Notes: generated by a model not told the origin, from the letters alone. A stretch of 27,970 nt of DNA from a virus (IMGVR_UViG_3300030099_006710:1-27970); one strand, 5' to 3'. Positions 1-15,550 are shown, counted from the stretch's first letter. Translations and numbers: made by a program.

Positions 1-18
1 TCCTTTAACCTCACACAT
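1..18 (-). CDS. possible 5' end of a further minus-strand gene (partial)
   Basis: On the minus strand an ATG at 18-16 opens a frame reading MCEVKG that is still open at the window edge. It overlaps the last codons of the 53-aa gene (stop at 13-11) by 8 nt, the kind of tight coupling seen throughout this cluster. Only six codons are visible, so no function can be given and the frame may be fortuitous. Confidence 0.3.
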
Positions 19-172
19 TAATACTTTTTTCTTTATTGGTTTTTCGGTTAACTGGCTTTTGTCCCAGTATTTTGGATTGTTGCTGTTTAATTTTCTCTTT
101 TTGCTCATACTCTTTTAAGTTTTTTTCTAAATTATTTTTCTCTCTTATAAAAAATTCTATTATTCTTCTCAT
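11..172 (-). CDS. small charged protein, 53 aa, unknown function
   Basis: I translated a 53-residue frame that starts at the ATG at 172-170 and ends at TGA (13-11). Its start overlaps the stop of the upstream gene in an ATGA arrangement (172-169), a strong sign of translational coupling. The product begins MRRIIEFFIREKNNLEKN and is rich in Lys, Glu, Gln and Asn, with heptad-like hydrophobic spacing in the first 30 residues, so a short helix or coiled coil is likely. There is no signal peptide or membrane segment. It is the last complete member of the operon that begins at the promoter near 1091-1122. I do not recognise a family. Confidence 0.6.
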   Translation of the reverse strand: MRRIIEFFIREKNNLEKNLKEYEQKEKIKQQQSKILGQKPVNRKTNKEKSINV

Positions 173-675
173 GTTACATTATATCTATGTCCGTTAATAA
201 TTACTTTTACTTCTGGTAAATACTTATCTACATCATATCTTTCTTTTACATATGCAATTTTATCTTCATGTTTCCACTTAGGTATAAACTCGCCACTTGA
301 CAACATATTAGACTGCTTTATGTAATAATTTTTGAGACAAAAGGCTATTAAGTACTCTAATCTATGTGATTCTTTTGGTATTAATATACGCTCAATACTA
401 TAAGTACCACGTTTTTTATCCCACTTAGTTTGATACTTACGCGTTTTGTTTAATTGCCAGTCACTACTGTAACCGCCTGTTTTAGTACGTCTTACATAGC
501 CCGTGGCATAACTTGCGACGTGTATAGCACAACCATACTGATCGCGTACTGGTAACTTAAATTCACGAGTGCCATTTGCTTTTTGACGCGCTGTTGTAAC
601 CTCATGAATATCAAGTAGTTGTAATTTATCTTCTATATTCATATTACCAACGTTTACATTTATTATATACTTCAT
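169..675 (-). CDS. hypothetical protein, 168 aa
   Basis: The product is soluble, basic and rich in Tyr and Lys, without a signal peptide or membrane segment. I do not recognise the family. The middle (about residues 40-100) has alternating polar and hydrophobic residues that suggest beta structure. The longest start overlaps the upstream 62-aa gene by 32 nt. A second Met at residue 12 (ATG at 642-640) lies just past that gene's stop and is preceded by AAT, matching the AATATG context of the neighbouring starts, so the real product may be 157 aa (169-642). Its stop overlaps the start of the 53-aa gene (ATGA). It is the third gene of the operon driven from about 1091-1122. Confidence 0.7.
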   Translation of the reverse strand: MKYIINVNVGNMNIEDKLQLLDIHEVTTARQKANGTREFKLPVRDQYGCAIHVASYATGYVRRTKTGGYSSDWQLNKTRKYQTKWDKKRGTYSIERILIPKESHRLEYLIAFCLKNYYIKQSNMLSSGEFIPKWKHEDKIAYVKERYDVDKYLPEVKVIINGHRYNVT

Positions 676-832
676 CGAATTGTTCTATCATTCCAGGTTT
701 TAGATCTTCTTTCCAATCACCTTGCATAAAACCCTTAGTTGTCTTGTACATTTCACCCATTAGTCTCATGAGTATTTTATTATCTAATACAAAGTAAATT
801 GCATTATCACTTTTATAAATTCCGTTTTTCAT
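644..832 (-). CDS. hypothetical protein, 62 aa
   Basis: A small, slightly basic soluble protein beginning MKNGIYKSDNAIYFVLD and containing two Trp. The start has the leader aaataataATG shared by several genes of this cluster and no Shine-Dalgarno sequence. It begins 1 nt after the stop of the upstream 79-aa gene and its 3' end overlaps the longest start of the next gene. I do not recognise a family. Conserved start context and tight packing support a real gene. Confidence 0.65.
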   Translation of the reverse strand: MKNGIYKSDNAIYFVLDNKILMRLMGEMYKTTKGFMQGDWKEDLKPGMIEQFDEVYNKCKRW

Positions 833-833
833 A

Positions 834-1073
834 TTATTTATTTTTTTCTTCTATTAAAAATCTGTCACCGAAAACATCTTGCCAATCCATTTCTGATATG
901 TGAGTATTTGTCCACGTAAATAAATTTCTTAGCTCTTCAACAGTCAGTTGACTAAATACATATTTTTTACTAAGTGAATCTTCTAACGACTTAGGCGCTG
1001 TTTTGTAGTTTTTTTGATGCTCTTTAATAGCTTGTTTATGCTCTGTTTTTAGTTGTAACCATAAATTTTTCAT
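834..1073 (-). CDS. hypothetical protein, 79 aa, first gene of its operon
   Basis: A soluble, mainly helical-looking protein (MKNLWLQLKTEHKQAIKEHQ...) with a Lys/Gln/Glu-rich N-terminal half and an aromatic C-terminal half containing TWTNTH and DWQDVFGD. It is the first gene downstream of a copy of the repeated minus-strand promoter element: the -10-like box starts 18 nt before the ATG, so the 5' leader would be only about 10 nt. The ATG follows ttaaataat. No family recognised. Confidence 0.7.
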   Translation of the reverse strand: MKNLWLQLKTEHKQAIKEHQKNYKTAPKSLEDSLSKKYVFSQLTVEELRNLFTWTNTHISEMDWQDVFGDRFLIEEKNK

Positions 1074-1090
1074 ATTATTTAATTTTATTA

Positions 1091-1122
1091 TATTATCTTA
1101 CTTTTATCGAATTTAATTTGTG
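1091..1122 (-). promoter_or_regulatory. repeated phage promoter element, copy A
   Basis: Read on the minus strand, CACAAA (1122-1117) is followed after 18 nt by AGATAATA (1098-1091), with ATTCGA in the spacer. It sits 18 nt upstream of the 79-aa gene. It is one of eight copies with identical spacing, all between 1.09 and 3.86 kb and all pointing left. The -10-like box resembles TATAAT. The upstream box is neither the sigma-70 -35 sequence nor the Bacteroidota TTG / TAnnTTTG pair. Confidence 0.75.
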
Positions 1123-1128
1123 TTAAGA

Positions 1129-1202
1129 ACGAGTGTGACTAGCGGTTTTACCTAAGACCAGCAAACTGTTTTATCTTATTCGGGACTGGCGTCATCACTC
1201 GT
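1129..1202 (-). repeat. long-range inverted repeat, structured intergenic region
   Basis: ACGAGTG (1129-1135) pairs perfectly with CACTCGT (1196-1202), and GAC (1137-1139) with GTC (1191-1193). Inside lie GGT/ACC (1144-1152) and CCAG/CTGG (1158-1161 with 1186-1189), so the RNA could form a branched structure on either strand. It begins 1 nt after the stop of the zinc-knuckle gene and ends 7 nt before promoter copy A. It could be a 3'-end structure, a terminator or a small RNA. No clear T-run follows. Confidence 0.5.
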
Positions 1203-1203
1203 A

Positions 1204-1413
1204 TTACCCTAACATTGTACCATAACCTCTACGTTGAGTCATCTTAGCTATTTTAGCAGCGTCAGCTCTTGACATTATCTGGATAGAGTTACCAGTCTTG
1301 TGGTTAATAAGAGGTGCACAACCATATGCTTCTGTTGTTGAGCAATTAACACAAGTGCTATAACCAAGATTGACTCTTACGCTAGGTATTATATTATTAC
1401 ATTTACACTTCAT
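1204..1413 (-). CDS. small zinc-knuckle protein, 69 aa, TraR/DksA-like pattern
   Basis: I chose the ATG at 1413-1411 because it overlaps the upstream gene's stop as TAATG. A start 9 nt earlier (1422, adding MGL) is possible. The N-terminus, MKCKCNNIIPSVRVNLGY then CVNC, places Cys at 3, 5, 21 and 24, with another at 32. This resembles the TraR/DksA C4 zinc finger (CxxC-x-x-IP-x2-R...CxxC), except that the first knuckle is CxC. The C-terminal half is basic (AAKIAKMTQRRGYGTML), suggesting nucleic-acid or RNA-polymerase contact. TraR/DksA proteins bind RNA polymerase in the secondary channel; a similar role here is only inferred. It is coupled to the 86-aa gene in a two-gene unit behind promoter copy B. 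Confidence 0.65.
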   Translation of the reverse strand: MKCKCNNIIPSVRVNLGYSTCVNCSTTEAYGCAPLINHKTGNSIQIMSRADAAKIAKMTQRRGYGTMLG

Positions 1414-1673
1414 TAGCCCCATTTTGGAAAGTAACTATCATTAACAAATACTAAACCAGCGTGGCCACTGCCAAGTTCATTACATATCATCCACTTATCA
1501 ATGCCTTGACTTGTTTTACTTTCTTTAGTAATAGGATCATTATTATTCCATTGTATGCAACCAAATTTTGCTGGTATTTTACCTATCTCGTATGCTCTGT
1601 ATTTTTCACCGTTTATTGAGTATAATAAATAGTGATCACTGTCTTGCTTTTTTAGTTTTTTTATTGTGTTCAT
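1413..1673 (-). CDS. hypothetical protein, 86 aa
   Basis: A basic N-terminus (MNTIKKLKKQDSDHYLLYSI) leads into a compact, probably beta-rich body with four aromatic residues at the C-terminal end (FVNDSYFPKWG). It has two Cys and no signal peptide. It is the first gene behind promoter copy B: the -10-like box starts 26 nt upstream of the ATG. The stop codon shares bases with the next gene's start (TAATG), so translation of the zinc-knuckle protein is probably coupled to it. No family recognised. Confidence 0.7.
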   Translation of the reverse strand: MNTIKKLKKQDSDHYLLYSINGEKYRAYEIGKIPAKFGCIQWNNNDPITKESKTSQGIDKWMICNELGSGHAGLVFVNDSYFPKWG

Positions 1674-1698
1674 GTTATAATTTTTTTAATTTCATTTA

Positions 1699-1730
1699 TA
1701 TTATCTATAGTGTATCGTATTTAATTTGTG
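1699..1730 (-). promoter_or_regulatory. repeated phage promoter element, copy B
   Basis: On the minus strand, CACAAA (1730-1725), 18-nt spacer, then AGATAATA (1706-1699). The spacer carries TAAATACGA, one base from the TAAATTCGA of other copies. It drives the 86-aa and zinc-knuckle genes and lies 6 nt after the stop of the 20-aa membrane peptide, so the previous unit ends almost on top of this promoter. Confidence 0.75.
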
Positions 1731-1735
1731 ATAAC

Positions 1736-1798
1736 TTAATCTCTTATCCATCTAATCATAGCTAAAACTATAGCCGCTAATATTACCCAGCCTAGCAT
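1736..1798 (-). CDS. 20-aa single-pass membrane peptide
   Basis: This micro-gene is shorter than usual ORF cut-offs. Its ATG (1798-1796) overlaps the stop of the signal-peptide gene as TAATG. It ends at TAA (1738-1736) just before promoter copy B. The product starts MLGWVILAAIVLAMI and ends in RWIRD: a hydrophobic stretch of about 15 residues followed by a positively charged tail, as expected of an inner-membrane peptide. Coupling to a secreted protein suggests the two act together at the envelope, for example in lysis timing or superinfection exclusion. That is inference; no family is recognised. Confidence 0.55.
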   Translation of the reverse strand: MLGWVILAAIVLAMIRWIRD

Positions 1799-2100
1799 TA
1801 GTCTATTTCATCACAGTTCATACAATTTACCTCAAAATTATTATATAATTTCTCATATAATTCATTTCTCATAATTGTTAACCAATAGTTACTTCCCCAA
1901 CCTTCAGAGTATTCACCCATACTAGTTTCACCTCTTTCTTTATCATATTCTTGCCATTCGAGAATATCTTCTAAAGTATTTATTATTTCAATTACTTCAA
2001 GTCTAGTAAATGTTACTTCATCTTGATAATTTACTGTGTCTTGAGCGTTTACAGTTAGCGCAATTAATAGTGCTGCTACACTTAGTTTTATTTTCTTCAT
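1798..2100 (-). CDS. small secreted protein with Bacteroidota-type signal peptide, 100 aa
   Basis: Residues 1-20 form a classical Sec signal peptide: MKKIK, the hydrophobic core LSVAALLIALTV, then NA|QD with predicted cleavage after Ala19. The ...NAQ ending is typical of Flavobacteriia and supports such a host. The mature part is about 80 residues, acidic, with several Trp and Tyr, and ends with a CxxC (Cys93 and Cys96) near the C-terminus that could form a disulfide or bind metal after export. No lipobox Cys is present. It is the third gene behind promoter copy C and its stop overlaps the start of the 20-aa membrane peptide. Function unknown; an envelope-directed host-takeover or exclusion factor is plausible. 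Confidence 0.75.
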   Translation of the reverse strand: MKKIKLSVAALLIALTVNAQDTVNYQDEVTFTRLEVIEIINTLEDILEWQEYDKERGETSMGEYSEGWGSNYWLTIMRNELYEKLYNNFEVNCMNCDEID

Positions 2101-2111
2101 ATTATTTAATT

Positions 2112-2408
2112 TTAATCTAGTCCGTCTCTATAATTACCTCTTTCGTCAAAGAATTTTTTACCTTTTTTAACCATTTCGTTTATAGCATTTTCTAATGGAT
2201 CTACCTCACGTTTTACTTCATTTTGCCATACTTCTTCAGCTTTTGCTTCAATTTCTGACATATTTATTGTGATATTTAAGTAGCCTAAGTGATGTTCTTG
2301 ACCGAAACCATCAGTTACTGTTACACTGTAATGAGTGTTGTCTTTGTATTTACTTATATCTATTTTTCTACTAATACCCATTTTTTCATAATCTATTAAA
2401 TTTTTCAT
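2112..2408 (-). CDS. hypothetical protein, 98 aa
   Basis: A soluble acidic protein. Residues 1-55 look beta-rich (HYSVTVTDGFGQEHHLGYLNITI), and the C-terminal 45 residues look helical and charged (SEIEAKAEEVWQNEVKREVD). The next gene begins 11 nt downstream after ttaaataat. It is the middle gene of the unit behind promoter copy C, between the 62-aa gene and the secreted protein. No family recognised. Confidence 0.7.
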   Translation of the reverse strand: MKNLIDYEKMGISRKIDISKYKDNTHYSVTVTDGFGQEHHLGYLNITINMSEIEAKAEEVWQNEVKREVDPLENAINEMVKKGKKFFDERGNYRDGLD

Positions 2409-2419
2409 ATCTTAACTAT

Positions 2420-2608
2420 TTAGTTTATGTATTCTTCTACTAGTTCGTGTTTGTAGTGACTATCATTTAATTCATTTAGCATTTCATCACTCATTTTCTC
2501 ACCATCATACTCTGCAATTGAAACATAAGCATCTTCATAGTCTGGATAGTCCCAGTGCTTTATATTACTTACTTCTATTACCTCTACTTTATTTATATCA
2601 AACTTCAT
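2420..2608 (-). CDS. small acidic protein, 62 aa
   Basis: A very acidic protein (MKFDINKVEVIEVSNIKHWD... ending EYIN), rich in Asp, Glu and Tyr. Small acidic phage proteins are often inhibitors or DNA mimics, but nothing here proves that. It is the first gene behind promoter copy C, whose -10-like box starts only 14 nt upstream, so the leader would be nearly absent. The ATG follows aaaaataat. Confidence 0.7.
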   Translation of the reverse strand: MKFDINKVEVIEVSNIKHWDYPDYEDAYVSIAEYDGEKMSDEMLNELNDSHYKHELVEEYIN

Positions 2609-2621
2609 ATTATTTTTATTA

Positions 2622-2653
2622 TATTATCTTACTTATTATTAATTTATTTTGTG
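2622..2653 (-). promoter_or_regulatory. repeated phage promoter element, copy C
   Basis: On the minus strand, TCACAAA (CACAAA 2653-2648), 18 nt, then AGATAATA (2629-2622). The region from the last spacer bases to the start of the leader (GTAAGATAATATAATAAA) is identical to copy A. The ATTCGA of the spacer is replaced by ATTAAT. It drives the acidic 62-aa, 98-aa, secreted and 20-aa genes. Confidence 0.75.
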
Positions 2654-2713
2654 ACATTTGCCTGTTACTCTCTTAACTTAACTACCTATTGTCACACTCT
2701 ACAAAAGGAAGAG

Positions 2714-2748
2714 ATGGTACTCACTACTCAACACTTCATGAGTACCAT
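2714..2748 (-). repeat. perfect 10-bp inverted repeat, 3' of the 76-aa gene
   Basis: ATGGTACTCA (2714-2723) and TGAGTACCAT (2739-2748) are perfect complements around a 15-nt loop. The repeat lies 18 nt past the stop of the minus-strand 76-aa gene and about 60 nt before promoter copy C. On the minus strand it is followed by CTCTTCCTTTTG, a weak pyrimidine tract, so it may be a terminator or a transcript-end stabiliser. Confidence 0.55.
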
Positions 2749-2766
2749 TTCAACCTATCCAACTAA

Positions 2767-2997
2767 CTAAACTAGTTCTTTACCTCTTAGTATCATTGGT
2801 ATGTTATTTGTTGCTGTATATGACTTATACTTTGCCCAGCATGGTAGAGACTCTAAAGTTTCTTTCATTATTTCCCATACTTTGTCATGATTATAAGTGA
2901 TTTCATCACCTTTTTTGTTAGTAAATACTATTACTTGGTTTTTACCAATTAGTGTCTTTCTTACTACAAATCTTTTGCTTTTGATTAAATTTTTCAT
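2767..2997 (-). CDS. hypothetical protein, 76 aa; paralogue of the gene at 3501-3725
   Basis: A small basic protein. Its central block (KRFVVRKTLIG, then TNKKGDEITYNHD, then KYKSYTATNNIP) is shared almost residue for residue with the 74-aa protein encoded 0.7 kb upstream on the same strand, so the pair arose by duplication. The N-terminal half looks like a small beta-sheet and the middle like a helix. No signal peptide or metal-binding motif is seen. It is the only gene of the unit behind promoter copy D (-10 box 44 nt upstream) and is followed by a 10-bp inverted repeat. Function unknown. Confidence 0.75.
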   Translation of the reverse strand: MKNLIKSKRFVVRKTLIGKNQVIVFTNKKGDEITYNHDKVWEIMKETLESLPCWAKYKSYTATNNIPMILRGKELV

Positions 2998-3040
2998 AAT
3001 TTTATTAGTTTTAGTTAGTTATTTATTTGTTTTACAGTTA

Positions 3041-3072
3041 TATTATCTTTTACTTGTCGAATTTACATTGTG
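3041..3072 (-). promoter_or_regulatory. repeated phage promoter element, copy D
   Basis: On the minus strand, CACAAT (3072-3067), 18 nt, AGATAATA (3048-3041), with AAATTCGA in the spacer. It differs from the consensus at one base of the upstream box. It reads into the 76-aa gene. Confidence 0.7.
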
Positions 3073-3135
3073 AAAAGTACATAGTTTGTTTACTTATTAT
3101 TTTTAGTTTACTGGTACTATTCCACCTCTCTGTGT

Positions 3136-3282
3136 TTACAATACTTCTATTGACATATTTAGTTCATCAAATAGTTTACCATATTCACTTTCATATACAT
3201 TGTCAAGTGTGTAAACTTCACCATTCACTATCATTTCATAGATGTCATTATCTTCATCTATTCTTAGTACTATTTCTTTCAT
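3136..3282 (-). CDS. very small acidic protein, 48 aa
   Basis: I translated this frame directly: ATG at 3282-3280, TAA at 3138-3136, beginning MKEIVLRIDEDNDIYEMIV and ending in ELNMSIEVL. It is strongly acidic (about 14 Asp/Glu against few Lys/Arg), with a beta-hairpin-like start (VLRIDED...YEMIVNGEVYTL). Promoter copy E lies 25 nt upstream of its ATG, which supports expression. The plus-strand frame covering the same bases is a low-complexity shadow. Function unknown. Confidence 0.65.
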   Translation of the reverse strand: MKEIVLRIDEDNDIYEMIVNGEVYTLDNVYESEYGKLFDELNMSIEVL

Positions 3283-3306
3283 AACTTTTATTTTTATATT
3301 CATATA

Positions 3307-3338
3307 TATTATCTATGAGTGATCTAATTAATATTGTG
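3307..3338 (-). promoter_or_regulatory. repeated phage promoter element, copy E
   Basis: On the minus strand, TCACAAT (CACAAT 3338-3333), 18 nt, AGATAATA (3314-3307). The spacer has TTAATTAGA instead of TAAATTCGA. The downstream bases TATATATGAATA are identical to those of copy H. It drives the 48-aa gene. Confidence 0.7.
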
Positions 3339-3391
3339 ACAAGTGCACACTTCATTATACTATATATATCTTGCATTTTGCATTACATATA

Positions 3392-3423
3392 TATTATCTT
3401 GTAGTGTTCGAATCTAGTTTGTG
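3392..3423 (-). promoter_or_regulatory. repeated phage promoter element, copy F
   Basis: On the minus strand, TCACAAA (CACAAA 3423-3418), 18 nt, AGATAATA (3399-3392), with GATTCGA in the spacer. There is no clear gene between it and copy E. Either the two act in tandem on the 48-aa gene, or F makes a short transcript or a 40-aa peptide (see rejected items). Confidence 0.7.
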
Positions 3424-3440
3424 ACAGCGGCGAGCGATTT

Positions 3441-3494
3441 TGCTATACACTTCGTGCTATACACGAGTGCCTTTCGACACTCCGTGCTTCGCAC
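3441..3494. repeat. GC-rich structured island with a 10-bp direct repeat and hairpins
   Basis: TGCTATACAC occurs twice (3441-3450 and 3455-3464). CACTTCGTG (3448-3456) can pair with CACGAGTG (3462-3469) with one bulged base and a 5-nt loop. GAGTG/CACTC (3465-3469 with 3478-3482) is a competing stem, and GTGC-TTC-GCAC (3484-3494) forms another hairpin. The island lies between the stop of the 74-aa gene (3501) and promoter copy F. It stands out as GC-rich in AT-rich DNA. It may be a terminator, a small RNA or a regulator site. Confidence 0.5.
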
Positions 3495-3500
3495 TTCGTT

Positions 3501-3725
3501 TTACCTACAGAATGTTGGTATGTTGTTAGTGTTAGTGTATGACTTGTACTTTTGGAAACAGTTCATTGATTCAAATCTATCTTTGTTCTTGTTGTACACT
3601 TCATCATGATTGTAAGTTATCTTGTCACCTTTCTTATTCTCAAATGTTATTATAGTGTTAGTACCGATTAGTGACTTTCTGATTACAAATCTTTTAGTTA
3701 CAATGTTGTTCATTTCTTTTTTCAT
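3501..3725 (-). CDS. hypothetical protein, 74 aa; paralogue of the gene at 2767-2997
   Basis: It shares with the 76-aa protein the blocks KRFV-I/V-RK-S/T-LIG, NKKGD-ITYNHD and KYKSYT-TNNIP, including the Cys before KYKSYT. It begins MKKEMNNIV; the second Met (residue 5) is an alternative start. It ends earlier than its paralogue (TFCR). It is the rightmost minus-strand gene and is preceded by two tandem promoter copies, G and H, so it is probably the most strongly expressed of this set. Function unknown. Confidence 0.75.
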   Translation of the reverse strand: MKKEMNNIVTKRFVIRKSLIGTNTIITFENKKGDKITYNHDEVYNKNKDRFESMNCFQKYKSYTNTNNIPTFCR

Positions 3726-3757
3726 AATTTAATTTAATTTAGTTAGTTAGTTATTTA

Positions 3758-3789
3758 TATTATCTATTGTTATACTTATTTAGCTTGTG
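3758..3789 (-). promoter_or_regulatory. repeated phage promoter element, copy G
   Basis: On the minus strand, TCACAAG (CACAAG 3789-3784), 18 nt, AGATAATA (3765-3758). The spacer lacks the ATTCGA core (TAAATAAGT). The -10 box starts 33 nt upstream of the 74-aa gene. Confidence 0.7.
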
Positions 3790-3827
3790 ACTATTTATTT
3801 TATATTGTTAATTTCTTTATTCATATA

Positions 3828-3859
3828 TAGTATCTGTATATACTCGAATTAAGTTTGTG
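3828..3859 (-). promoter_or_regulatory. repeated phage promoter element, copy H
   Basis: On the minus strand, TCACAAA (CACAAA 3859-3854), 18 nt, AGATACTA (3835-3828), with AATTCGA in the spacer. It lies about 70 bp upstream of copy G with no gene between, forming a tandem promoter for the leftward genes. Confidence 0.7.
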
Positions 3860-3861
3860 AC

Positions 3862-4165
3862 TGCGCCAACTACTATGCTATACATACGCGCGCGGCGCGT
3901 TGTTGCAGCTACCTAGCCTAGCTGTAGCCAGCAATACCTAAATACTTTGCAAGGCTTTATTGCTGTGGTCGATGGCAAACACGATATAAATATGGAAACG
4001 CTAAAAATGACTAGAAAGTGCAGAAACACGTATGGGGACTGGTGAAATAAAATTGACTTTCGAAAAATAAAAAAAAATAGGGGAGGAGGGTACAGCACCC
4101 TACTTCTATATTTATAACATCTATTGCATTAGTAAAAAACTATTTTTCTATGTGATAATATAAAT
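3862..4165. other. divergent intergenic interval with hairpin island
   Basis: This is the core of the only gene-free stretch longer than 300 bp (3726-4165); the rest of it holds promoter copies G and H. Three hairpins follow one another. ACGCGC/GCGCGT (3886-3900) is a perfect 6-bp stem with a 3-nt loop. GCTAC/GTAGC (3908-3928) encloses CTAGCCTAGC. CAGCAATA/TATTGCTG (3929-3936 with 3958-3965) is a perfect 8-bp stem. TGCTATACA at 3876-3884 repeats the motif at 3441. AGGGT/ACCCT (4087-4101) is a further hairpin after an A-tract. Just before the first plus-strand gene is TGATAATATAAATATG, which matches the -10 half of the promoter element but without CACAAA. Candidate roles are an origin, a control region or a small RNA. 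Confidence 0.55.
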
Positions 4166-5107: not shown

Positions 5108-6676
5108 ATGGAATACAACTTACCTAGTGAGATTGTTAAAGACTTAAACTTTGGCAATAGCGCTAAAAAACGAATAATTGCTGGCGTAACCAAGCTAGCA
5201 GAAGCCGTAAAGTCCACATTAGGCGCGAGTGGAAGATGCGTAATATACGAAGATGGACGCGGCAAACCGGTGATCACAAAAGATGGAGTAACCGTGGCAG
5301 AAAGCGTAGTCTTATACGATCCGGTTGAAAACATGGGTGCTACTTTAATTAAAGAAGCTGCAAGAAACACAGTAAAAGAAGCGGGTGATGGTACTACTAC
5401 TGCAACTGTATTAGCAGAGGCTTTAATAAAGGAAATAAATAAAGAGCAAGATAACAATATTTCTGTTAGAGATATTAAACAAGGCGTTAATTCTGGTCTA
5501 GTAAAAGTAAACGATTACTTAAATAGTGTAAAAATCGAGGTAAAAGATGATATGCTAGATAACGTTGCTGCCATTAGCTGTAATAACGATGCTGATCTTG
5601 GCGCTATTATTGCTGACGCTTATAAAAAAGTAGGTAAAGACGGTGTTGTTTTAATGGAAGAAAGCGACACTGATGAAACTTACGTTGAATTAGTTGACGG
5701 GGTGCAAGTAGAATGTGGCTTAACATCACAGCATTTTGTAACAGATACTGAAAAACAACGCGCTATACTAGAAAATCCTTTAATACTTATTGTTGCATCG
5801 GAAATACCAAACATTAGAAAAATACAAAGCATACTAGAGTACGTAATAAAAAACAATAGATCGCTTTTAATAGTAGCCCAAGTGGCACAGCAAGTAAAAA
5901 GTGCACTTTTAATGAACAAAGTTAAAGGTAATATTAAAGTAAATATTATTGACTTACCAGGCTTTGGTCCTACTAAACAAGATACTATAGAAGATTTAGC
6001 AATTTTAACTGGTGCTAAGGTAATAAATGAAGAATTAGGCGATGATCTTGATGGAATATCGCTAGATGTGCTTGGAGAAGTTGAAAAAGTAGTAACAGAT
6101 GATAAAAATACTGTAATTACACTAGAAGATATTGCTCCTAGCGTTGAAGAACGTATAAAAGACGTTAAAAAGCTTTATAAAAAAGAAAAAAACGGCTTTT
6201 TTAAGAAAAAAATACACCAAAGAATAGCAATGCTATCAGGAAGCGTAGGTATAGTGCGCGTTGGTGCTAATTCTAAAATAGAATTAAAAGAAAAGAAAGA
6301 TAGAGTTGAAGACGCTATATACGCTACAAAAGCCGCACTAAAAGAAGGTATTATATCAGGTGGTGGTGTAGCGCTATTAAACGCTTCTCAAAATTTAAAG
6401 GCCAGTAGTAAAGGTGAAGAGATTATATTTAACGCTATCACAGCTCCTTTTCACACTATATTAGAAAATGCTGGTTTAAAACAAATAGGCCCTAGACCTG
6501 CAAAAGGCGTGGGTGTTAATGTTGTTACGGGTGAAGAGGCTAATATGATTGATGTTGGTATCATAGATCCTGTACTTGTTACTAAGTCTGCACTTAAAAA
6601 TGCGGTTTCTGTGGTGACTACTATTATATCTGCTGATTGTGTAATCTCAAATATTAGAATCAATGAAGGCAGTTAA
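5108..6676 (+). CDS. groEL: phage-encoded chaperonin GroEL (Cpn60), 522 aa
   Basis: Group I chaperonin, an ATP-driven folding chamber. The equatorial ATP site is intact: TKDGVTV (Asp59 = E. coli Asp52), AGDGTTTATVL (Asp94 = Asp87), VEDAIYATKAA (Asp402 = Asp398) and SGGGVALL (417-424). The apical domain spans about residues 195-375. Known substrate and GroES contacts are partly altered: E. coli Tyr199, Tyr203 and Leu234 correspond to Leu205, His209 and Gln240, while Phe204 and Leu237 are kept as Phe210 and Leu243. The protein ends ...SNIRINEGS, without the GGM-repeat tail. At 522 aa it is shorter than the usual 540-550. It overlaps groES by 14 nt, in the order groEL-groES, the reverse of bacterial operons. 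It probably folds capsid or tail proteins. No SD; the start follows taataaaac. Confidence 0.95.
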   Translation: MEYNLPSEIVKDLNFGNSAKKRIIAGVTKLAEAVKSTLGASGRCVIYEDGRGKPVITKDGVTVAESVVLYDPVENMGATLIKEAARNTVKEAGDGTTTATVLAEALIKEINKEQDNNISVRDIKQGVNSGLVKVNDYLNSVKIEVKDDMLDNVAAISCNNDADLGAIIADAYKKVGKDGVVLMEESDTDETYVELVDGVQVECGLTSQHFVTDTEKQRAILENPLILIVASEIPNIRKIQSILEYVIKNNRSLLIVAQVAQQVKSALLMNKVKGNIKVNIIDLPGFGPTKQDTIEDLAILTGAKVINEELGDDLDGISLDVLGEVEKVVTDDKNTVITLEDIAPSVEERIKDVKKLYKKEKNGFFKKKIHQRIAMLSGSVGIVRVGANSKIELKEKKDRVEDAIYATKAALKEGIISGGGVALLNASQNLKASSKGEEIIFNAITAPFHTILENAGLKQIGPRPAKGVGVNVVTGEEANMIDVGIIDPVLVTKSALKNAVSVVTTIISADCVISNIRINEGS

Positions 6677-10687: not shown

Positions 10688-10910
10688 AGAACTTATCAAC
10701 GTTGCTAAAGAAAAAATCATTACCAATACCGAAGACGATGTGTCAGCTGATAGATTAAAAAATGCGGCAGCTACTAAAAAATTAGCTATATTTGACGCAT
10801 TTGAAATACTTAACAGAATCCAAGAAGAGCAAAGTATTTTAGACGGAAAAAATATTGAAGAGAAAAAAGAAAGAGTTTTTAAAGGATTTGCAGAGGGAAG
10901 ATCAAAATGA
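10632..10910 (+). CDS. candidate small terminase subunit, 92 aa
   Basis: An all-helical, charged protein beginning MNTKETKKLIIQAGHKAVEE, with DDVSADRLKNAAATKKLAIF in the middle and a basic end (KGFAEGRSK). Its stop overlaps the start of the large terminase (ATGA), the usual position of a small terminase, which recognises packaging DNA and stimulates the motor. No helix-turn-helix is obvious and the length is short for a TerS (usually 130-200 aa), so the call rests on context. It overlaps the upstream gene by 56 nt. Confidence 0.45.
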   Translation: MNTKETKKLIIQAGHKAVEELINVAKEKIITNTEDDVSADRLKNAAATKKLAIFDAFEILNRIQEEQSILDGKNIEEKKERVFKGFAEGRSK

Positions 10911-13117
10911 GCTACGAACAAACATTAGTTAAAACAATAGAACCTATTAAACGTACGACTATAACTCGTATGAATAGGGGTAAAAAATGGAAATATGGAC
11001 ACAATAAAGAACATGATATCGTCGTTATCTCAAAAACTGGAAAAATTGGTGAAATACTTGAAATACAAGGCTTGCAAATTGGCCTGCCGTTGGAACCAGT
11101 GCAAGTGCAATTGCGATCCGAAAACAAATGGGTAAAACAAGACCAACCAAAAGAGCTTAGTAGATTAAAAAATATATTTGACTGGAGATCATATCCTGAA
11201 GAAGCAAAAGAGCAGTGGTATGATTATATAGACGAAGAGTTCAAACGAAGAGACGAAGGTTTTTGGTTTTATAATAATAACAAACCGACTTATATAACAG
11301 GTACACACTATATGTACTTGCAATGGAGCAAAATCGACGTAGGCGCACCAGATTTTAGAGAAGCAAATCGTTTGTTTTATATATTCTGGGAAGCTTGCAA
11401 GGCAGATAAAAGATGTTATGGCATGTGTTACCTTAAAAATCGTCGTTCTGGTTTTTCTTTCATGTCATCAGCTGAAACAGTTAATTTAGCCACTATATCA
11501 AGTGATAGTAGATATGGGATACTTTCTAAAACGGGTGCAGATGCTAAAAAAATGTTTACTGATAAAGTGGTACCTATTAGTATTAATTATCCTTTTTTCT
11601 TTAAGCCAATACAAGACGGTATGGACCGTCCTAAAACAGAACTAGCATATAGGGTTCCAGCTAGCAAGTTTACAAGAAAAAAAATTACAGCTAATGAAAA
11701 GCTAGAAGAAATAAAAGGCTTAGACACAACTATTGACTGGAAGAATACTGGTGATAATAGTTATGATGGTGAAAAATTAGCTTTATTAGTACACGATGAA
11801 AGTGGCAAATGGGAAAGACCTGATAATATATTAAACAACTGGAGAGTAACAAAAACTTGTTTAAGATTAGGTAGTAGAATTATAGGTAAATGTATGATGG
11901 GCTCAACTTCCAACGCCCTTGATAAAGGTGGAGATAACTTCAAAAAACTTTATAATGATTCAGATGTTACAAAAAGAAACCGTAATGGACAGACAAAGTC
12001 TGGCCTTTATTCTCTCTTTATCCCAATGGAATGGAACTACGAAGGCTTTATTGATGAATACGGAAGTCCAGTGTTTGATAGTCCGAGTGATGATGTCTTC
12101 GGACCAGATTCCGAGTTAATAGACTATGGTATAATAGATTATTGGAACAATGAAGTAGAAGGCTTAAAAAATGATCAAGATGCTTTAAATGAATTTTACC
12201 GCCAGTTTCCAAGAACTGAAGAGCATGCTTTTAGAGATGAGACTAAAAATTCTATTTTTAATCTTGTTAAAATATACGAGCAAATTGATTATAACGACGG
12301 TATTAAACCAATAATAAGTAAAGGTAATTTTCAATGGGTTAATGGTATAAAAGATACTCAAGTTATATTTTATCCAGACTCAAAAGGTAGATTTAATATT
12401 AGTTGGACACCACCTCAACATTTGCAAAATAAAATAATACTTAAAAATGGTATTAAATATCCAGCCAACGAACACGTGGGCGCTTTTGGTTGTGATAGTT
12501 ACGATATTAGCGGGACTGTAGACGGTAAAGGATCTAAAGGAGCTTTACATGGATTAACTAAATTTAGCATGGAAGACGCTCCTCCAAATCACTTTTTTTT
12601 AGAGTATATAGCTCGACCTCAAACGGCTGAAATATTTTTTGAAGATGTTTTAATGGCATTAGTTTTTTATGGCATGCCTTTATTAGCAGAAAATAATAAA
12701 CCAAGATTATTATATTATTTAAGACGTAGAGGCTATAGAGGTTATAGCATGAATAGACCTGATAAATCTTGGAACAAGCTATCAACAACAGAAAAAGAAA
12801 TAGGTGGTATACCAAACACAAGTGAAGATATAAAGCAAGCTCACGCAGCTGCAATTGAAATGTATATACAAAATCATGTGGGTATTATTAAAGAAAATAC
12901 ATATGGTAATATATATTTTAACGAAACATTAAATGATTGGAGTAGGTTTGATATAAATAAACGTACAAAGTTTGACGCGGCTATTAGTAGTGGTTTAGCT
13001 ATTATGGCGTGTAATAGAAGTTTATATGCTCCAAATGCAAATATAGAAAAACCAAAATTAAACATAAACATATCCAGGTATACTAACACTGGTTATAATT
13101 CAAAAATAATAAAGTAA
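10907..13117 (+). CDS. terL: terminase large subunit, 736 aa
   Basis: Two-domain packaging motor. The ATPase part (about 90-470) has a deviant Walker A at 177-184, KNRRSGFS, in which the usual lysine position is replaced and Lys/Arg lie at the start of the loop, as in lambda-type TerL (KSARVGYS). Walker B with catalytic Glu is ALLVHDE (292-298), and MGSTSN (331-336) is the likely coupling motif. The RNase H-like nuclease part (about 520-710) shows FGCD (Asp530), PLLAENN (Glu595) and TKFDAAISSG (Asp690) as the acidic metal-binding triad. The N-terminal 90 residues are an extra basic domain. It cuts and pumps DNA through the portal encoded 3 nt downstream. The length is on the long side for the family. 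Confidence 0.93.
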   Translation: MSYEQTLVKTIEPIKRTTITRMNRGKKWKYGHNKEHDIVVISKTGKIGEILEIQGLQIGLPLEPVQVQLRSENKWVKQDQPKELSRLKNIFDWRSYPEEAKEQWYDYIDEEFKRRDEGFWFYNNNKPTYITGTHYMYLQWSKIDVGAPDFREANRLFYIFWEACKADKRCYGMCYLKNRRSGFSFMSSAETVNLATISSDSRYGILSKTGADAKKMFTDKVVPISINYPFFFKPIQDGMDRPKTELAYRVPASKFTRKKITANEKLEEIKGLDTTIDWKNTGDNSYDGEKLALLVHDESGKWERPDNILNNWRVTKTCLRLGSRIIGKCMMGSTSNALDKGGDNFKKLYNDSDVTKRNRNGQTKSGLYSLFIPMEWNYEGFIDEYGSPVFDSPSDDVFGPDSELIDYGIIDYWNNEVEGLKNDQDALNEFYRQFPRTEEHAFRDETKNSIFNLVKIYEQIDYNDGIKPIISKGNFQWVNGIKDTQVIFYPDSKGRFNISWTPPQHLQNKIILKNGIKYPANEHVGAFGCDSYDISGTVDGKGSKGALHGLTKFSMEDAPPNHFFLEYIARPQTAEIFFEDVLMALVFYGMPLLAENNKPRLLYYLRRRGYRGYSMNRPDKSWNKLSTTEKEIGGIPNTSEDIKQAHAAAIEMYIQNHVGIIKENTYGNIYFNETLNDWSRFDINKRTKFDAAISSGLAIMACNRSLYAPNANIEKPKLNINISRYTNTGYNSKIIK

Positions 13118-13120
13118 AGT

Positions 13121-15550
13121 ATGGCAGAGTCTGTTATAAAAAGTTATTTCCCTAGTCAAGTTGTAAGTGATGCTGAAAAGCTTAGCTATGATTATGGTTT
13201 AAAAATTGCAAAAGCTATAGAACAAGAATGGTTTTATAATGATAAATTTCAAACTAGATACGCGGCAAATAAAAATAATTTTCATGATTTAAGATTATAT
13301 GCTAGAGGAGAACAATCAATACAAAAATACAAAGATGAGTTATCTATAAATGGTGATTTATCATATCTTAATTTAGACTGGACACCTATACCAATAATAT
13401 CAAAATTTGTAGATATTGTAGTTAATGGTATGTCTGATAGAATGTATGATATAAAAGCTTTTTCTCAAGATCCTTTTGGTGTAAATAAAAGGACACAATA
13501 TATGCAGTCTATTATTGATGACATGCGAACAAAAGAGCTTAATGAATTTGCACAAGAATCTTTTGGAATACAACTATCAACTAACGAACCAGAAACTCTT
13601 CCATACTCAATGGACGAATTACAATTGCACATGCAGCTAAACTATAAGCAAGCTGTAGAAATAGCAGAAGAACAAGCTATTGATACTTTGTTAAATGGTA
13701 GTAATTATGATTTAATACAAAAAAGATTTTATTATGATTTAACAGTTTTAGGTATAGGTGCTACAAAAACTACTTTTAACACTTCAGAAGGTGTTAAAGT
13801 AGAATACGTTGATCCTGCAGATTTAATTTATTCTTATACAGAATCACCTTATTTTGAAGATATATATTACGTTGGTGAAGTAAAAGCGATACCAGTAAAT
13901 GAACTAGTAAAACAGTTTCCTTTTTTAGAAAATGAAGATTTAGAAGAAATAGTAAAAAACAGTAACTATCATTTACGAAATTACAACCAAGGTTATACTC
14001 ATTATAGAGAAATAGATAATAACAAAGTTCATGTTTTATATTTTAATTATAAAACTTATATGAACGAAGTGTATAAAATAAAAGAAACAGGTAGTGGCGC
14101 AGAAAAAGTAATACCTAAAGATGATAATTTTAATCCACCAGAAAACAAAGAAGGAAGCTTTGGTAGATTACAAAGAAATATAGAGGTTTTATATGAAGGG
14201 GCTTTAGTTCTAGGTACAAACAAGCTTTTAATGTGGGAAATGGCTGAAAACATGATGCGACCTAAAAGTGATTATACTAAAGTAAAAATGAATTATTCTA
14301 TTGTTGCACCTAGAATGTACAAAGGAAAAATAGAAAGTTTAGTTAGTAGAATAACAGGTTTTGCTGATATGATACAACTTACGCATTTAAAGCTGCAACA
14401 AGTAATGTCGCGTATGATACCAGATGGTGTGTATATGGATGCTGATGGTTTAGCTGAAATTGATCTAGGTAATGGAACTAATTATAATCCTCAAGAAGCT
14501 TTAAATATGTTTTTTCAAACAGGTAGTGTAATTGGTAGAAGTTTCACTAGTGATGGTAATATGAATCCTGGAAAAGTACCTATACAAGAAATAACTTCTG
14601 GTTCAGGTGGTGCCAAAATACAAGCGCTTATAACTAATTATAATTATTATCTTCAAATGATAAGAGATGTAACCGGTCTTAATGAAGCTAGAGATGGTAG
14701 TACGCCTGATAAAAATGCTTTAGTTGGCGTTCAAAAATTAGCAGCGGCAAATTCTAACACAGCAACTAGACATATATTACAGTCTGGTTTATACTTAACA
14801 GCTGAAACAGCAGAAAAACTTTCACTTAGAATATCTGACATTATAGAGTACTCACCAACTAAAGATGCGTTTATACAAGCTATTGGCGTTCATAACGTGG
14901 CGACTCTTGAAGAAATGTCAGACTTGCATTTATATGATTTTGGTATATTTATTGAGTTATCACCAGATGAAGAAGAAAAAGCAATATTAGAAAATAATAT
15001 ACAAGTTTCTTTAGCTCAACAAGGAATAGAACTAGAAGACGCTATAGACATTAGAGAAATAAAAAATCTAAAACTTGCTAATCAAATGCTTAAGTTACGT
15101 AGACAACGTAAAATAGAGCGTGATCAATTAATGCAACAGCAAAACATACAAGCGCAGGCACAAGCTAACGCGCAGTCTCAACAGGTTGCTGCTCAAGCTG
15201 AAATACAGAAAAACCAAGCAAACGCGCAAGTTCAAGCGCAGTTAGAGCAAGTAAAAGCACAACTTGAATCTGCTAAAATGCAACAAGAAGTTCAGTACAA
15301 AAAAGAATTAATGCAGCTAGAATACCAAATGAATATGAATTTGAAAGGTATGGAAGTTCAAGGATTAAAAAACAGAGAAAAAGAAAAAGAAGATCGTAAA
15401 GACGAAAGAACTAGAATACAAGCTAGTCAACAATCAGAGCTGATTGAGCAAAGAAAAAATAATCAACCAGCTAAAAAGTTTGAATCTTCAGGTAATGATA
15501 TACTAGGAGGTAGATCAGTAGTTGATATGTCTGGTTTTACACCTAGATAA
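13121..15550 (+). CDS. portal protein with long Gln-rich C-terminal coiled coil, 809 aa
   Basis: Forms the dodecameric ring at the capsid vertex through which DNA is pumped. Evidence is position directly after terL, size, and portal-like features: an N-terminal alpha/beta part with FVDIVVNGMSDRMYD (about 95-115), a central part with AVEIAEEQAIDTLL and LTVLGIGATKT, the probable stem/crown region ITGFADMIQLTHLKLQQVMS (about 410-430), and RDVTGLNEARDGSTPD (517-532), a motif found in many portals. From about residue 650 the chain is Gln/Ala-rich (AQAQANAQSQQVAAQ...) then Glu/Lys/Arg-rich, probably a long coiled coil reaching into the capsid, like a barrel. The C-terminus ends GGRSVVDMSGFTPR. Confidence 0.87.
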   Translation: MAESVIKSYFPSQVVSDAEKLSYDYGLKIAKAIEQEWFYNDKFQTRYAANKNNFHDLRLYARGEQSIQKYKDELSINGDLSYLNLDWTPIPIISKFVDIVVNGMSDRMYDIKAFSQDPFGVNKRTQYMQSIIDDMRTKELNEFAQESFGIQLSTNEPETLPYSMDELQLHMQLNYKQAVEIAEEQAIDTLLNGSNYDLIQKRFYYDLTVLGIGATKTTFNTSEGVKVEYVDPADLIYSYTESPYFEDIYYVGEVKAIPVNELVKQFPFLENEDLEEIVKNSNYHLRNYNQGYTHYREIDNNKVHVLYFNYKTYMNEVYKIKETGSGAEKVIPKDDNFNPPENKEGSFGRLQRNIEVLYEGALVLGTNKLLMWEMAENMMRPKSDYTKVKMNYSIVAPRMYKGKIESLVSRITGFADMIQLTHLKLQQVMSRMIPDGVYMDADGLAEIDLGNGTNYNPQEALNMFFQTGSVIGRSFTSDGNMNPGKVPIQEITSGSGGAKIQALITNYNYYLQMIRDVTGLNEARDGSTPDKNALVGVQKLAAANSNTATRHILQSGLYLTAETAEKLSLRISDIIEYSPTKDAFIQAIGVHNVATLEEMSDLHLYDFGIFIELSPDEEEKAILENNIQVSLAQQGIELEDAIDIREIKNLKLANQMLKLRRQRKIERDQLMQQQNIQAQAQANAQSQQVAAQAEIQKNQANAQVQAQLEQVKAQLESAKMQQEVQYKKELMQLEYQMNMNLKGMEVQGLKNREKEKEDRKDERTRIQASQQSELIEQRKNNQPAKKFESSGNDILGGRSVVDMSGFTPR

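Follow-up and report, generated by a model that had tools for sequence, protein, structure and literature searches.

The 27,970-nucleotide viral stretch IMGVR_UViG_3300030099_006710:1-27970 (the window) is a fragment of a tailed-phage genome with early genes on the minus strand (1-3900) and late genes on the plus strand, the latter encoding GroEL, the terminase, the portal and virion proteins. Eight copies of a promoter-like element, here termed class 1, lie in the early arm, and a second element, termed class 2, stands at the head of the late arm (Table 1). Judged from their sequence, the eight class-1 sites are almost certainly genuine transcription start signals, and we lean towards the view that they represent a phage early promoter read by the host core RNA polymerase together with a phage-encoded sigma70-family factor.

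A preliminary description of the locus had listed eight minus-strand sites with the boxes CACAAA and AGATAATA exactly 18 nucleotides (nt) apart. The coordinates and the identical spacing were recovered for 8/8 sites, while the exact string was present in only four of them (those ending at 1122, 1730, 2653 and 3423); the deviating boxes read CACAAT at 3072 and 3338, CACAAG at 3789 and AGATACTA at 3859. A shorter form, CACAA-N19-AGATA[A/C]TATA, matched all eight sites exactly and occurred nowhere else in the 27,970 bases, with no copies on the plus strand and none in the late arm. When up to three mismatches were allowed, the sole additional matches were four plus-strand sites with three mismatches each, which is the level expected by chance. 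Likewise, a 41-column position matrix built from other contigs only gave the eight sites scores of 28 to 46 bits, while shuffled windows scored below zero. As described previously, a T preceded CACAA in seven of the eight sites and ATTCGA was present in four. The reported distance of 14 to 44 nt to the start codon applied to five sites (13 to 43 nt from the box end) and not to 3338, 3423 and 3859. At site 3338, the first ATG of the open reading frame (ORF) is provided by the TATATG of the box itself, and translation probably begins at the ATG that follows, at about 3279. Sites 3423 and 3338 as well as 3859 and 3789 form tandem pairs, whose upstream members 3423 and 3859 stand 88 and 102 nt from the ORF, respectively, and the copy at 3828..3859 is the class-1 site nearest to the divergent junction. 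By eye, the 1730 copy resembles a T7-type core; this identity was rejected, since the resembling stretch is missing from the other copies and a T7-like polymerase did not turn up in a search whose controls likewise matched nothing.

In two relatives (L088 and L089), whose early protein is 63% and 54% identical, the motif occurs 8 and 10 times, respectively, on the early strand only. Viral contigs were scanned with 15 fixed bases of the motif, an earlier and stricter pattern having matched nothing, and at least 119 stretches were retrieved, with 27 loci containing two or more copies (92 sites), always on a single strand. The two relatives and the 26 pattern-found contigs contain 2 to 10 copies each, on the early-gene strand every time. 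All 26 records behind the multi-copy loci encode a terminase 73-88% identical to that of the window, on the strand opposite to the motif copies, and the reversed pattern gave no matches in these records. The pattern is specific enough to recognize the clade from DNA alone, as seen in 26/26 multi-copy contigs. Conservation extends to positions outside the search pattern, namely TAAATACGA and a T followed by a purine 3' of the -10 box. No convincing class-1 site was detected when the genomes of phi38:1, Panino, elemoE and MW202828 were scanned with the matrix. Class-1 promoters were also observed right behind a tRNA gene or a tRNA-like 3' end (GGTTCGAGTCC...; G026:57488-57591, and similarly in L116, L131, L133, L175 and L177), so that tRNAs are placed between early operons. 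In addition, a class-1-like match lies within a conserved exonuclease gene (G002:65602-65633, G012:508-539), which may either act as a promoter inside the gene or reflect, by coincidence, the conservation of the protein.

On their early strand, the motif-bearing genomes encode a 249-253-amino-acid (aa) protein of the sigma70 family with regions 2, 3.0 and 4. Its gene, which lies outside the window, was found in 7/7 motif genomes covering the respective region, next to or near the gene of a 206-aa protein with a C-terminal helix-turn-helix (HTH). The domain models PF04542 (Sigma70_r2, 1.7e-5) and PF04545 (r4, 3.6e-7) both matched above the gathering score, PHROG 351 (RNA polymerase sigma factor) was matched at 1.4e-21, and comparison of the sigma profile with the PDB returned SigA and FliA. 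The structure model aligned along sigmaA chains with a low TM-score (0.3), the model confidence being modest. At least 368 stretches in the IMG/VR viral contigs encode relatives of this factor, and clustering of early-strand proteins revealed no sigma protein of this cluster in MW202828, phi38:1, Panino or elemoE. Class-1 sites are located upstream in 44/50 sigma loci with at least 7 kb of upstream sequence, and several of the remaining loci carry diverged versions. This co-occurrence of class 1 and sigma is strong, yet class 2 is found together with sigma, too, and the relatives are of common descent. Region 2.4 reads KRI[KR]G-x-IRR in 79/80 cases, and its alignment places Gly and Arg at the SigA positions that contact base -12. 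These two residues would fit a purine instead of T at -12.

To determine the architecture of class 1, only the upstream box was searched for in 80 sigma loci, with up to two mismatches allowed and the -10 box left free. This search gave 384 sites on the sigma strand compared to 13 on the opposite strand. GATAAT was present at the exact predicted distance in 318/384 sites, and column 37, the predicted start, was a purine in 353/384 (92%). The spacing is near-invariant, with 324/390 at offset 0, two at -1 and one at -5. The upstream element is about 16 bp long, reading CACAAACTAAATACGA in most relatives, and the clade consensus is (C/T)ACAAACTAAATACGA-N9-GATAATATA-ww-T-R, where R is the predicted +1, GATAAT occupies -12 to -7 and the upstream element, 16 bp long, lies at -37 to -22. 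Copies within one genome tend toward the same variant, while between genomes the base at -13 and the box (CACAA, TACAA or CACGG) vary; diverged versions comprise CACGGACTTAT...GATAATAT in L325 and a C preceding GATAAT in L280.

Class 2, GTAAA-N14-TGT-RATWAT-ATA, was defined on 62-63 distinct sites. It directly follows the sigma stop codon in 67/80 loci by pattern and in most of the others by eye, and it also precedes a late structural gene. Aligned on the -10 hexamer, the two classes share R-12 A-11 T-10 W-9 A-8 T-7 A-6, and both end in T-1/R+1 at the same distance from the -10 box. We had first aligned the two classes on TAAA-N16-TAAT but gave this up for an alignment on their common -10 (RATWATATA) and start step. 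Class 2 is constant across the clade, whereas class 1 drifts. No class-2 site was seen in the four genomes scanned (phi38:1, Panino, elemoE and MW202828). In L302 and L310, a class-1-like site takes the place of class 2 directly after the sigma gene.

The preliminary description had considered class 1 to be unlike both the Bacteroidota and the sigma-70 promoter, which was borne out. For the flavobacterial primary sigma, the consensus TAnnTTTG at -12 to -5 has been published (PMC9723704), and none of the class-1 logos contains TAnnTTTG with TTG upstream, ruling out identity with the host primary-sigma promoter. An E. coli-type promoter (TTGACA/TATAAT, 16-18 nt apart) was likewise ruled out, as class 1 has no TTGACA and another spacing; GATAAT matches TATAAT in 5/6 positions. 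Class 1 shares with the Bacteroidota promoter an upstream box, an AT-rich -10-like box and A-rich leaders without a Shine-Dalgarno sequence, but differs from it by the lack of TTTG at -8 to -5 and of a TTG box, by G/A instead of T at -12 and by its fixed spacing. Host-type promoters before genes, searched for as TTG-N16-21-TAnnTTTG, amounted to two across some 470 kb of clade sequence, which is not above chance, compared to ten in Panino and two or three each in MW202828, phi38:1 and elemoE. The clade phages seem to have dropped the host promoter signal almost completely.

It had further been proposed that class 1 is a phage-specific early or middle promoter, possibly read by a phage-modified RNA polymerase. 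Strand, position, conservation up to the predicted +1, restriction to the clade and genome-specific concerted drift support the former part well, and the latter fits the phage sigma factor found here, although the start sites themselves are predicted. An activator binding CACAAA/ATTCGA, the other option named in that description, may also take part, the upstream element being in fact about 16 bp long. Because class 1 shares its -10 and start step with class 2, is restricted to the clade, drifts in concert and is not accompanied by host promoters, a factor specified by the phage probably acts on it, for which the sigma protein is the best candidate. The host core RNA polymerase would take up the phage sigma in place of the host primary sigma and read class 1, and class 2 would serve the replication genes following the sigma gene as well as the late arm.

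Several points weigh against a role of the phage sigma at class 1. The covariation of class-1 variants was no higher for sigma than for the HTH, ERF and exonuclease proteins, and the DNA-contact segments of sigma are almost invariant while the class-1 variants differ between genomes. Moreover, the sigma gene lies downstream of class-1 promoters, so that sigma could not make the first transcripts unless it is carried in the virion or weak host initiation helps. In phages 7-11 and phiEco32, the phage sigma is used for middle/late genes and host sigma70 for early genes (PMC8948821).

It is possible, with clearly lower probability, that the host holoenzyme in its unmodified form recognizes class 1 and that only class 2, for replication and late genes, is read by the phage sigma. 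The host enzyme could do so through a primary sigma tolerating non-consensus sites, by means of an alternative sigma of the host, or with host sigma assisted by an activator bound to the 16-bp upstream box. Such a division would be in line with the location of class 1, which precedes both the earliest genes and the sigma gene, and with class 2 beginning right behind the sigma stop codon and opening the late arm; class 2 is also constant like the DNA-binding segments of sigma, while class 1 drifts. SPO1, T4 and phiEco32 follow the classical order, with host sigma acting early and a phage factor later. In phage 7-11, the early promoters use host sigma70 and the late ones the phage sigma (PMC8948821). 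However, the TAnnTTTG element (PMC9723704) is missing from hundreds of class-1 copies, class 1 has G in place of T at -12, variants that are concerted and genome-specific would be unexpected for a conserved host sigma, and Panino, a related phage, does have TTG/TAnnTTTG promoters in use.

A phage RNA polymerase delivered with the virion, as in N4 and crAss-like phages, could account for the first transcription, the rigid spacing, the concerted drift and the missing host-type promoters, and a giant late protein of the clade has a well-conserved C-terminal domain that was not found in MW202828. Nevertheless, we regard it as very improbable that such an enzyme reads class 1. The giant proteins of G002 lack the DxDxD motif, the profile of their domain did not match a polymerase in the PDB, and a low-confidence model showed a HAD domain followed by helices, without any polymerase match. 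Family scans of the large proteins revealed no polymerase, and PF00940 had no match in the searched genomes, though control genomes also matched nothing. The giant protein was rejected as a virion RNA polymerase, since profile, motif and model point to a HAD domain plus helices instead. There is also scant likelihood that the repeats, instead of being promoters, are bound by a DNA-binding protein of the phage (as operator, replication or packaging sites) or act as an RNA leader element. Repeated intergenic single-arm elements are also known as operators, and the early arm of MW202828 carries 14 copies of a perfect 16-bp palindrome, but class 1 lacks symmetry, is oriented towards the next gene in every copy and contains a -10-like half that closes with a T-R step, and both this -10 and the start step recur in class 2.

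Among the early genes, the family formed by the proteins of 3501-3725 and 2767-2997 is present in 8/8 sigma-clade genomes compared, the window included. The 1204-1422 protein appears zinc-ribbon-like and is a candidate binder of RNA polymerase or nucleic acid.

Table 1. Promoter-like sites and genes of the window, with predicted transcription starts (+1).
Feature	Position	Strand	Remarks
Class-1 copy CACAAATTAAATTCGATAAAAGTAAGATAATA	1091..1122	-	Predicted +1 ~1085; before ORF 834-1073
Class-1 copy	1699..1730	-	Top matrix score of the window, 46.5 bits; predicted +1 ~1693; before ORF 1413-1673
Class-1 copy	2622..2653	-	Predicted +1 ~2616; before ORF 2420-2608
Class-1 copy	3041..3072	-	Predicted +1 ~3035; before ORF 2767-2997
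Class-1 copy, tandem downstream member	3307..3338	-	Predicted +1 ~3301; before ORF 3136-3303
Class-1 copy, tandem upstream member	3392..3423	-	Pair with 3307-3338; predicted +1 ~3386
Class-1 copy, tandem downstream member	3758..3789	-	Predicted +1 ~3752; before ORF 3501-3725
Class-1 copy with AGATACTA, tandem upstream member	3828..3859	-	Pair with 3758-3789; predicted +1 ~3822
Class-2 promoter-like site GTAAA-N14-TGT-GATAAT-A	4132..4160	+	Head of late arm, six nt before ATG 4166
168-aa early protein	169..675	-	Query that led to the motif-bearing relatives L088 and L089
72-aa early protein, paired cysteines (CxC + CxxC)	1204..1422	-	Kept in 8/8 sigma-clade genomes
76-aa early protein	2767..2997	-	Paralogue of 3501-3725
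74-aa early protein, first gene of early arm	3501..3725	-	Paralogue of 2767-2997
GroEL-like chaperonin	5108..6676	+	Near late-arm start
Terminase large subunit	10907..13117	+	Homologue in 26/26 contigs retrieved by promoter pattern alone
Portal protein	13121..15550	+	

No near match to the window turned up among phage records. The closest named relative is ctfjg026 (MW202828), with 65% terminase identity; the terminase of phi38:1, which is filed under Pervagoviridae, is 37.6% identical to that of the window, and more distant named relatives, phi38:1 among them, infect Flavobacterium, Maribacter, Cellulophaga and Tenacibaculum. From these relatives and the leaders without Shine-Dalgarno sequences, we infer a Bacteroidota host for the clade. 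Six sigma-homologue matches in bacterial genomes (L334-L339) were discarded as host evidence, as these contigs of metagenome-assembled genomes, labelled Aliivibrio, Ilumatobacteraceae, Lewinella, Halieaceae and Saprospiraceae, are probably mis-binned phage DNA. The Pervagoviridae-related flavophages phi38:1 and Calle, the Maribacter phage Panino, the elemo phages and ctfjg026 resemble the clade in their terminase (38-65% identity), structural genes, GroEL and divergent early and late arms, but phi38:1, Panino, elemoE and MW202828 differ in having neither class 1 nor class 2 nor a sigma gene of the cluster. The early arm of MW202828 (MW202828.1 43745-55154; L090/L091), which has no class 1, contains the perfect palindrome GTGTCGTTAACGACAC 14 times, in many cases 20-50 nt before start codons; perhaps it is an operator or another switch of early genes. 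The giant late proteins of the clade measure 2292-4058 aa (G002:16694-23572, L101, and homologues in G003, G012, G018, G026, G028, G030 and G033) and combine variable N-terminal parts with a C-terminal domain of about 880 aa that is 44-55% identical and consists of a HAD-like part (DFDETL) and helices. A further structural protein of 3166 aa (G002:28938-38438, L100) ends in a crAss muzzle C-terminal domain (PF25729), which links the podovirus-like clade to crAss-like tails.

The phiEco32-like phages (phi32_gp36; SaPh711_gp47 in 7-11) are similar to the clade in their podovirus-type genome, in the arrangement of early/middle genes opposite to late genes, and in encoding a factor of the sigma70 family on the early/middle strand. 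In 7-11, the promoter GTAAtg-(16)-aCTA (PMC8948821) is bipartite and has a GTAA upstream box like class 2. While the early genes of phiEco32 and 7-11 use host sigma70, those of the clade have a non-host element of their own, and a host-type class was not detected. The proposed redirection of the host core polymerase by phage factors, with distinct promoter classes, has parallels in the T4 middle (MotA/AsiA) and late (gp55) systems and in the SPO1 gp28 cascade. MotA promoters also join an upstream box with a -10 element. Class 1 differs from the T4 and SPO1 promoters in its sequences, its rigid spacing and its 16-bp upstream element at -37 to -22. No paper on the sigma factor or the promoters of this clade was found in the literature searched, which excluded preprints and most subscription journals. 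Phage sigma programmes are already known, and the early promoter family described here is a new variant.

We consider it conceivable, though rather doubtful, that the lineage gave up host primary-sigma promoters altogether and that its first genes also need a phage-specified factor. In that case, the specificity factor would enter with the DNA as a virion-borne sigma or activator, or leaky host initiation would prime the programme, in contrast to the phages known to encode a sigma factor, in which the early genes depend on host sigma. The findings raise the question of how infection starts without a host-type promoter. From sequence, they outline for a large uncultured group of marine phages a transcription programme that can be put to the test, comprising two promoter classes, a sigma gene and predicted starts, and offer a candidate for an orthogonal sigma/promoter pair in Bacteroidota, where standard promoters fail.

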